DNA of 32,523 nt. Origin: Oscillatoriales cyanobacterium PMM_0008. GTDB taxonomy: Bacteria; Cyanobacteriota; Cyanobacteriia; Cyanobacteriales; Aerosakkonemataceae. Each line of letters opens with the position of its first letter. The stretch's first letter is position 1. Under the pieces are notes generated by a model. That model was not told where the DNA came from. It was given only the letters and a program-made list of their open reading frames with translations, and made no database searches. The DNA lies in NCBI GenBank assembly GCA_949128025.1, contig CASBRD010000344.1, forward strand, positions 1-32,523, given 5' to 3'. Below are positions 1,500 through 3,148 of the stretch, in pieces. The position numbers and the translations under genes were made by a program.

Positions 1500-1528
1500 T
1501 CCTGATGGGAAATCGGAGTGTCTGTAAC
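1500..1528 (+). promoter_or_regulatory. DIF1-like promoter element upstream of patX
   Basis: TCCTGA at 1500-1505 differs by one base from TCCGGA, the core of the DIF1 motif of heterocyst-associated promoters. It lies 56-61 nt before the patX start codon. After a 17-nt spacer, TGTAAC (1523-1528) could act as a -10 element. Published patX genes are described as having a DIF1 motif within about 70 nt of the start, so the position fits. The one-base difference keeps confidence moderate. Confidence 0.45.
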
Positions 1529-1560
1529 AGGAATTAGAGACGCAAACACAACGATTTTTT

Positions 1561-1764
1561 ATGGGACATCACAGTTCTACTATTTGGATGGGTTTATTCT
1601 TGGTTCTCTTCACTCCTATTTCCGAAGACCTTGGAAATCGCTCAACCAAGACTTTGGATTTTAACAGTTCGGAACAATTTATATCCCAAAGCCTCCCCTT
1701 GGCGCAACACTTCATAGCTGATGCCAATTGCCATCGAGGCAGCGGCAGAAGTGAGTGTAAATAA
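1561..1764 (+). CDS. patX: PatX-like RGSGR pentapeptide precursor, probable HetR inhibitor
   Basis: A 67-residue protein with the two features that define PatX. There is a hydrophobic N-terminal stretch at about residues 8-20 (IWMGLFLVLFTPI). Near the C-terminus is the exact pentapeptide RGSGR (residues 59-63, preceded by His and followed by SECK). In Anabaena, RGSGR-containing peptides from PatS or PatX bind HetR and block its activity, setting the spacing of differentiated cells. PatX is reported to co-occur with HetR across filamentous cyanobacteria. Here hetR begins 484 bp downstream on the same strand. The ATG at 1561 is the first possible start after an in-frame TAA at 1525. No good Shine-Dalgarno is visible, and the ATG at 1588 is an alternative. 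A DIF1-like element lies at the expected upstream distance. The function is inferred; the motif and context are directly visible. Confidence 0.8.
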   Translation: MGHHSSTIWMGLFLVLFTPISEDLGNRSTKTLDFNSSEQFISQSLPLAQHFIADANCHRGSGRSECK

Positions 1765-2248
1765 TTTGCTTTGTGACGCTTTAAAGCTCTGCTTGTAAAC
1801 CAAGCGATCGCGGTTGATATCTTTTACTTCTGATTTTACAGACAGCCAAGCCTTAAAACTTATCCGCTTTTATGCAGCGAAGCCTGTCAAATCAGCAGAT
1901 ATCGATAGGCGATCGCAATTTTTCTGGCTCTTTCGGAATTGTTATGCTTTTGTTCATTCAAGAACATTTTTATTTCTTTTCTCCTCTGCCCCTCTGCCAT
2001 AGCATAGTAAGCACGGAACGCCTTAGATAGGCTAAATTTTGGAAAGCAGGGTTCGTCTTAAACTTGACCTAAAAGTCGTAAAACAAGAAATAATGAGTGC
2101 GGGAAAGCAATCATTTCATTTTTGCCGCATCGGTAGGCTTTAAGCTAAATGTGTTCTACAAATAGCTTGAAAGGTCTGGCTATCCGCAGCGTGAAATGAT
2201 CGTCCGTGCCTCCAAATTTTGTATCATAGTGATACCATCCCTACTAAC
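1765..2248. promoter_or_regulatory. patX-hetR intergenic region, likely hetR promoter and leader
   Basis: This 484-bp stretch holds no convincing gene. It contains HIP1-type sites, a perfect 9-bp inverted repeat (ATCATTTCA at 2110-2118, TGAAATGAT at 2192-2200) and a palindrome directly before hetR (2221-2235, annotated separately). In Anabaena, hetR has a long multi-promoter leader, so long regulatory sequence here is expected. No NtcA consensus (GTA-N8-TAC) was spotted by eye. Confidence 0.4.
2221..2235. promoter_or_regulatory. Perfect palindrome upstream of the hetR start
   Basis: GTATCA-TAG-TGATAC is a perfect inverted repeat ending 13 nt before the hetR start codon. This spacing suits an operator or an RNA hairpin covering the ribosome-binding region. 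It does not resemble the published HetR-binding site upstream of hetP. The binding factor is unknown. Confidence 0.35.
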
Positions 2249-3148
2249 ATGAGCAATGACCTCGATCTGATCAAACGCCTCAGCCCTAGTGCAATGGATC
2301 AGATCATGCTTTATCTGGCCTTTAGTGCCATGAGAACGAGTGGGCACCGGCATGGGGCGTTTCTAGATGCAGCGGCGACAGCGGCAAAATGCGCCATTTA
2401 CATGACCTATCTGGAGCAGGGCCAAAACCTGCGAATGACAGGTCATTTGCACCATATTGAGCCGAAACGGGTTAAGGCAATAGTTGAGGAAGTCAGGGAA
2501 GCTCTGACTGAAGGTAAGCTTTTGAAGATGCTGGGTTCTCAGGAGCCCCGCTATCTGATTCAGTTTCCTTATGTCTGGATGGAACAGTATCCGTGGATGC
2601 CAGGGCGATCGCGCATTTCCGGTACTAGCCTCACATCCGAGGAGAAACGGCAGATTGAGGAAAAACTCCCCCCTCTTCTGCCGGACGCTCAACTGGTCAA
2701 CTCTTTTCAATTCATGGAATTGATCGAATTTCTCCACAACCGCTCTCAGCAAGATTTGCCGCTGGAACGACAAGTGCCTTTGAGCGAAGCTTTGGCAGAG
2801 CATATCAAACGTCGCCTGATCTACGCCGGGACGGTGACACGAATTGATTGTCCTTGGGGGCTACCTTTCTACGCCCTCACTCGCGTTACTTACTCGCCGT
2901 CCGACGATGAGGATCGCACTTTCATCATGGTTGAGGATACGGCCAGGTATTTCCGTCTGATGAAAGGTTGGCAAGAGCGACAGCGCTATGTGATGAGACT
3001 TTTGGAGGAGTTGGATATTCCGCTCGATCGCGTAGATCGGGCCTTAGAGGAACTTGATGAGGTCATTCGCCAATGGGCCGATCGACATCACCGAGAGGGC
3101 GGAGAGCAGATGATTTTACAGATGGTTTTTGGCCCGAAAGATGACTGA
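2249..3148 (+). CDS. hetR: HetR, master regulator of heterocyst/cell differentiation
   Basis: HetR is a DNA-binding regulator that starts heterocyst development and pattern formation and is inhibited by RGSGR peptides from PatS/PatX. The protein has exactly the canonical 299 residues when started at the ATG at 2249 ([11 protein letters not shown]), so ten extra upstream codons are rejected. The N-terminal DNA-binding part (about 1-98) includes Asp17, Gly36, Cys48 and the conserved stretch [14 protein letters not shown]. Ser152 and Ser179, residues studied in the Anabaena protein, are present. In the C-terminal hood domain, Arg223 and the LLEELD segment (Glu253, Asp256) are kept, matching the region linked to peptide binding. 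The protein therefore looks functional and peptide-responsive. No strong Shine-Dalgarno is visible. The patX-like gene lies upstream and a hairpin follows 73 nt after the stop. Confidence 0.97.

Follow-up and report, generated by a model that had tools for sequence, protein, structure and literature searches.

A PatX-type gene beside hetR, with a TCCTGA promoter hexamer and a multi-copy sister gene in the same genome

Several described systems invite comparison with the gene discussed here. HetN is an enzyme-like protein, the yeast alpha-factor precursor is a tandem peptide precursor, and the founding paper on PatX is reportedly that of Elhai and Khudyakov from 2018. PatX itself has been reported in all HetR-containing cyanobacteria, according to excerpts of PMC7761841. 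For Nostoc, the available portion of PMC12756182 states that export of PatX is required, that the protein is cut by PatP, and that HetR binding by the peptide HRGTGR has an estimated Kd of 88 nM. Excerpts of work on Leptolyngbya BL0902 place PatX immediately upstream of hetR, describe the effects of patX deletion and the accompanying transcriptome changes as largely independent of hetR, and call it a mystery what patX and hetR do where heterocysts are lacking (PMC11298460). A promoter hexamer, DIF1 (TCCGGA), has been put forward in PMC7377430 for the patS and patX genes of heterocyst-forming species. PatS is given in partial texts as a peptide of 13 to 17 aa with its motif at the C-terminus (PMC9284123, PMC7761841).

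The gene described here lies in a window of 32,523 nucleotides, which is contig C344 of an assembly of 5.83 Mb in 469 contigs with a completeness of 98.75%. A first-pass annotation had drawn attention to a 67-codon frame at 1561-1764 on the plus strand with a hydrophobic N-terminus and an exact RGSGR, and the ORF list and a motif scan bear out these coordinates. The 67 aa protein ends in ...ANCHRGSGRSECK, with the RGSGR codons at 1735-1749 (residues 59-63); as had been remarked, the pentapeptide is not at the extreme C-terminus, and the translation has the residues SECK behind it. The hydrophobic core IWMGLFLVLFT (residues 8-18; 1582-1614, plus strand) reaches a Kyte-Doolittle mean of 2.33 over an 11-residue window, a value equaled by the multi-copy PatX gene described below. 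Read by eye, a signal-peptidase site after this core is unconvincing, which we count against the explanation favored below. The pentapeptide stands between two cysteines in the arrangement C57-H-RGSGR-SE-C66 (1729-1758, plus strand). On the same strand and 484 nt downstream, an intact hetR runs from an ATG at 2249 to a stop ending at 3148; as had been noted, it has 299 residues, and it scores 579.8 bits against the NCBIfam NF009718 cut-off of 489. The short protein matches no Pfam model. When it is compared with known PatX proteins through the NCBIfam profile NF047413, its score of 19.8 bits (E 0.001) falls below the curated cut-off of 30 bits. This too counts against the explanation favored below, and for this reason we call the protein a variant of the PatX type and do not file it under NF047413. 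The patX-like identity proposed by the first-pass annotation is supported by synteny, the position of the promoter, the exact pentapeptide, and conservation in relatives.

Like PatX of Anabaena/Nostoc PCC 7120 and Leptolyngbya BL0902 (NF047413), the window protein is small, with a hydrophobic N-terminus and RGSGR near its C-terminus. The partner hetR and a hexamer that precedes the ATG by about 61 nt are also shared with PatX, and the position immediately upstream of hetR recurs in Leptolyngbya, going by the excerpted description. In contrast to PatX, the window protein scores under the curated cut-off, has TCCTGA in place of TCCGGA, has its motif flanked by cysteines on either side, and is accompanied in its genome by another PatX protein, in which the motif occurs three times. 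It shares with PatS the HetR-binding pentapeptide RGSGR; however, PatS is a very short peptide ending in RGSGR, and the window protein has 67 aa and a four-residue tail. An internal RGSGR is shared with HetN, which is larger and expressed in heterocysts (PMC7761841), whereas the window protein is without a HetN-type domain.

A conserved promoter block at 1494-1563 (plus strand), ending at the patX ATG, matches R1, a DNA model built from 42 promoter blocks with the window's own included; these align as AATTTnTCCTGAT...TCCGTATCAGGAAnTAGAAACnCTGAnACGGA...ATG. Within the block, TCCTGA occupies the DIF1 position at 1500-1505 (plus strand), preceding the ATG by 61 to 56 nt exactly as the first-pass annotation had stated. 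It is followed at 1520-1541 (plus strand) by a second element, GTCTGTAACAGGAATTAGAGAC, the counterpart of the consensus TCCGTATCAGGAAnTAGAAAC, whose downstream dyad partner is degenerate in the window. The published DIF1, TCCGGA centered at -35, is replaced here by TCCTGA. The statement that all three published marks of patX are present is thus inexact: RGSGR and the hetR neighbor are there, but the literal TCCGGA is not. The description of TCCTGA as a DIF1-like hexamer one base away from TCCGGA holds for its position, but not for the implied one-off departure, since TCCTGA is the commoner form at hetR-adjacent patX. Support for this comes from 145 unique hetR loci (170 before identical loci were dropped) gathered from a named collection and from genomes of the order, the latter source having deliberately contributed few Nostocaceae. 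Of these loci, 61/145 have a same-strand RG(S/T)GR ORF in the 1.5 kb preceding hetR, 79 have none, and 5 are too short for a verdict; most of these loci are related, so that the counts are not independent events. The 79 loci, many of which are named as heterocyst-forming genera, are counted against the favored explanation. In two genomes (G043 and G099) of family f33, which we take to be Nostocaceae, patX lies 10 to 12 kb from hetR.

At the 61 hetR-adjacent patX loci, the position that precedes the ATG by 57 to 69 nt holds TCCTGA at 49, TCCGGA at 10, and neither at 2 (TCCCGA at one of these), with the choice of ATG favoring those that have a hexamer at the right distance. Counting the first ATG only gives 48, 10, and 3, a difference due to L117 alone. 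Taken together, TCCTGA at -57 to -63 or TCCGGA at up to -69 accounts for 59/61 loci; among 17,756 background ATGs, 0.96% have TCCTGA at that distance and 0.35% have TCCGGA. The 50 genomes of f33 gave 49 PatX matches, and an ORF was found for 29 of the best 30; among those 29, TCCGGA is present in 28 and neither hexamer in one, and all 29 have a single RG(S/T/N)GR motif. TCCGGA also occurs outside f33, including at the second PatX gene of G006, and the split between the two hexamers is accordingly strong and not absolute. TCCTGA is the commoner hexamer at patX outside Nostocaceae. The dyad TCCGTATCAG...CTGATACGGA was considered as an RNA hairpin and rejected: 67.7% of cells pair compared with 66.2% in shuffles (27/500 reach the observed value), and there is no covariation, the score equaling that of shuffles. 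The dyad symmetry fits a DNA site better than an RNA hairpin; its right half is degenerate in the window. A regulon search of the 10 family genomes with TCCTGA-N15-22-GTAWCAG as a strict pattern was also discarded: beyond patX it yielded few matches above a reversed-pattern control and one further candidate, in G005. Model R1 was used instead.

A search of 40 genomes with R1 gave 32 matches at E<1e-3, among which 10 are training loci or identical to one and 3 others are either close copies or known from the earlier steps (G030:C88, G009:C408, and G006:C78). At 13 of the remaining 19, an RG(S/T)GR ORF starts at the model's ATG or one codon earlier, a count by locus and not by lineage that becomes 11/17 without the two G010:C35 matches, which share a genus with training loci. 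The other six comprise G012:C37 (RASGR x4), G020:C13 (RGTSR), G030:C84 (RGNGR), two neighboring motif-less copies in G029:C1, and a glycosyltransferase-like gene at G020:C6. This last match (L272, G020:C6:99850-99914, E 9.7e-5) precedes a gene with a GTG start whose function was assigned by eye. A borderline match (L281, G017:C313:10944-11019, E 0.0036) ends at the ATG of a gene whose 709-aa product begins with a signal-like stretch. R1 matches at E<1e-3 occur in 20/25 genomes with hetR and 0/15 without it, a co-occurrence that is partly by construction because training loci sit in ten of those genomes.

R1 also led to a second PatX gene in the window's own genome (G000:C464:162-611). Its product has 149 aa, starts with MRLYKSILLSGLLLSGIAA, carries three RGSGR copies, and scores 74.1 bits with NF047413, over the cut-off of 30. 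The corresponding genes have three copies in congeners and four, spaced by 31 and 32 residues, in G005 and G006. In repeating the signal, the C464 gene and others resemble the yeast alpha-factor precursor (spacings of 26 and 29, 31, 32, 21, and 11/12 aa), although the analogy is one of layout and no homology is claimed. When the 61 hetR-adjacent PatX proteins are reduced to 45 representatives of <70% identity, more than one motif copy is found in 7/45, with at most five, and 13/45 end exactly at the motif. In these representatives, a scan limited to RGSGR and RGTGR finds RGSGR at 61/62 motif copies and RGTGR at one. Regular spacings of 12, 21, or 18/24 are seen in the hetR-adjacent L177, L178, L184, L187, L088, and L058, which have 3 to 5 RGSGR. 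A 201-aa PatX-like protein found by the curated model (L299, G017:C156, 1501 onwards) has 11 RGSGR spaced mostly by 11 and 12, and its genome gave no hetR match at E<=0.01. At the other end of the size range, L033, L034, L035, L039, L049, L086, L157, and L162 encode PatX forms of only 29 to 32 aa, which have RGSGR at the extreme C-terminus, little hydrophobic N-terminus, and a PatS-like size.

The presumed receptor is well preserved. The peptide-binding hood domain of the window HetR spans residues 219-297 (2903-3139, plus strand; Pfam HetR_C, 132 bits), and the closest solved chains are those of HetR in 4hri and 3qod. R223, E253, E254, D256, D270, and D278 are all present; excerpts of the PatS6 work describe these six residues as contacts or as needed for sensitivity (PMC4649674). 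Across the 145 HetR sequences, R223, E253, D256, and D270 are invariant, E254 is replaced by T in nine, and D278 by N in one. The nine E254T proteins are those of L066, L093, L097, L105, L164, L167, L187, L196, and L199, and E254 contacts the N-terminus of the peptide. The idea that the receptor changes along with its ligand was dropped on the evidence of G012. Its hetR-adjacent PatX (L186, G012:C37:8081 onwards) has 166 aa, a typical promoter, and RASGR x4 in place of RGSGR, yet the contact residues of its HetR are all standard. The PatS6 work expects an N-terminal extension to seven or more residues to hinder HetR binding (PMC4649674), so that cleavage of a PatX precursor would have to fall near the motif.

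The tools return the ORF and its conservation, the conserved promoter, the second gene, the HetR contact residues, and a genome with no nifH over the cut-off. The explanation that we favor, with fair though far from full confidence, is that the window ORF is a divergent, hetR-adjacent PatX pro-peptide gene whose product is exported, trimmed to XRGSGR, and inhibits HetR in a context other than heterocyst spacing. In this scheme, patX would be transcribed from the TCCTGA-type promoter at the DIF1 position, and the hydrophobic N-terminus would export the pro-peptide. A C57-C66 disulfide loop may protect the motif before trimming on both of its sides gives XRGSGR, which would be taken up by the same or a neighboring cell and would bind the HetR hood, releasing HetR from DNA. 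A second pro-peptide with three RGSGR copies would come from a like promoter (G000:C464:162-611), and a C39-like peptidase encoded on G000:C184 could be made from a third. The process so controlled would be something other than heterocyst spacing; filament breakage is one suggestion from the literature. The strongest rival, which we consider improbable but deserving of a place in the argument, accepts that a signal peptide is made and proposes that it acts weakly or not at all through HetR, the adjacency of patX and hetR stemming, for example, from shared transcription. The HetR independence of the deletion effects in Leptolyngbya BL0902, as excerpted above (PMC11298460), speaks for it. This rival has to contend with an exact RGSGR in the window, with RGSGR at nearly every motif copy of the 45 representatives, and with HetR contact residues that are nearly invariant in 145 sequences.

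A second rival, to which we give a still smaller chance, holds that the window gene is a decaying PatX descendant retained in the leader of hetR while the multi-copy C464 gene does the work. The two proteins do differ greatly in their scores with the PatX model (19.8 and 74.1 bits), and promoter-bearing copies without the motif exist elsewhere, such as the two in G029:C1. Comparisons of patX within the genus, based on 13 to 20 changes, give a Ka/Ks of 0.69-0.91, so that purifying selection at that level is not shown; the patX-hetR spacer, where alignable, is also as well conserved within the genus as the ORF. Both points count against the favored explanation. Nevertheless, the frame, RGSGR, the cysteine pair, and the promoter are intact in three genera, and Ka/Ks against G006 is 0.14, with Ks near saturation. 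The frame and RGSGR, whose loss beside a conserved hetR the first-pass annotation had named as the sign of a mistaken call, are kept in four relatives, at 91% and 82% identity in two congeners (G001 and G002) and at 64% and 48% in representatives of two other genera of the same family (G006 and G005). The density of RG(S/T)GR ORFs in the 145 hetR loci points the same way: on the same strand, the 1.5 kb preceding hetR has 28.71 per 100 kb, compared with 0.29 at greater upstream distances and 0 downstream of the gene, and the opposite strand has 0.43, making these ORFs 67 to 100 times denser just before hetR than elsewhere in such loci. A chance intergenic ORF, for which shortness and the lack of a Pfam match could be cited, has next to no probability given this enrichment and the conserved frame, motif, and promoter. 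The original observation is confirmed, the ORF being kept in three genera and belonging to a class enriched upstream of hetR.

Cysteines around the motif recur in several lineages. A cysteine lies within four residues before the motif in 9/45 representatives, within five after it in 8/45, and on both sides in 7/45, an association with a Fisher p of 6e-6 that ignores relatedness and uses flank lengths chosen by the analyst. Cysteine fills 9/180 and 8/160 flank positions compared with 11/1277 in the body of the proteins. The seven bracketed representatives fall in four families (f1, f21, f9, and f15), and the pair is found in 0/29 of the f33 PatX ORFs from the best 30 of 49 matches. We infer that the bracketing cysteines may form a disulfide in the periplasm. 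Weaker R1 matches (E 0.005 to 0.035) in G000, G001, G002, G005, and G006 end at the ATG of one 261-aa gene, which matches Pfam Peptidase_C39_2 with 71.6 bits and in the window's genome lies at G000:C184:2698-3480 (L269, L364). Orthologues occur in 5/10 family genomes, the same five that have a tailed, cysteine-bearing PatX and a multi-copy PatX, and were not found in G003, G004, G007, G008, and G009. In 5/5 of these orthologues, TCCTGA precedes the ATG by 57 to 61 nt; the five genomes form one clade of three genera, and the promoter link may therefore be one event. As a general partner of PatX, the peptidase was rejected, the hexamer being absent from 25 of 25 other, more distant homologues taken from a longer list. 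Homologues at E<=1e-10 occur in 94/163 genomes with hetR and 8/128 without, a distribution that follows lineage and is given no weight. The putative tie between the C39-like peptidase and the PatX system is a lead, not a result. A broader proposal, which we put forward tentatively and hold at somewhat less than even, is that in filamentous cyanobacteria outside the heterocyst lineage HetR would be governed not by one PatX but by a family of secreted pro-peptides that includes single-copy forms beside hetR, disulfide-closed in some lineages, and polyproteins of 3 to 11 regularly spaced RGSGR units. A shared promoter, mostly with TCCTGA in contrast to the TCCGGA of the heterocyst lineage, would coordinate them, and in the window's clade a C39-like peptidase could take part in their processing. 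Peptide signaling along filaments would then operate independently of nitrogen fixation.

No nifH match in the window's genome exceeds the curated cut-off (best 219.6 bits compared with 394.35), and since the model also gives below-cut-off matches in all 14 control genomes, a sub-threshold match means little; at 98.75% completeness, the absence of nifH is likely and not proved. The best named relative of hetR is that of Argonema antarcticum A004/B2, with 98% identity, and the host is probably an Argonema-like filamentous cyanobacterium without nitrogenase and heterocysts. In a genome with no nifH over the cut-off, the small gene beside hetR and the three-copy gene elsewhere make it easier to test what HetR does outside nitrogen-fixing cells. 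Concrete experimental handles are offered by the tandem precursors, the paired cysteines, the TCCTGA-type promoter, and the possible peptidase, and the one-base contrast between TCCTGA and TCCGGA would allow a direct test of regulatory change when the system came to space heterocysts. Model R1 also finds PatX genes whose products stay under the cut-off of the curated protein model. Titles and abstract openings of papers retrieved from the open-licence PatX/RGSGR literature mention neither multi-copy RGSGR precursors nor a cysteine bracket, and TCCTGA together with hetR brings up one unrelated paper in the open-licence literature. PatX beside hetR is already published; provisionally, the TCCTGA form, the multi-copy sister, and the cysteine bracket seem new. 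With a promoter form that extends across many families, the case goes beyond a single missed small gene. Elsewhere in the window, a PemK/MazF-like toxin gene lies at 5387-5731 on the minus strand, with a small ORF upstream (5721-5927) that matches no Pfam model and could be an antitoxin. At 3426-5202, also on the minus strand, an AAA-type ATPase, whose best PADLOC match is AbiLi followed by PDC-M38A, forms a candidate anti-phage defense pair with a DUF3226 protein that PADLOC matches to PDC-M38B.
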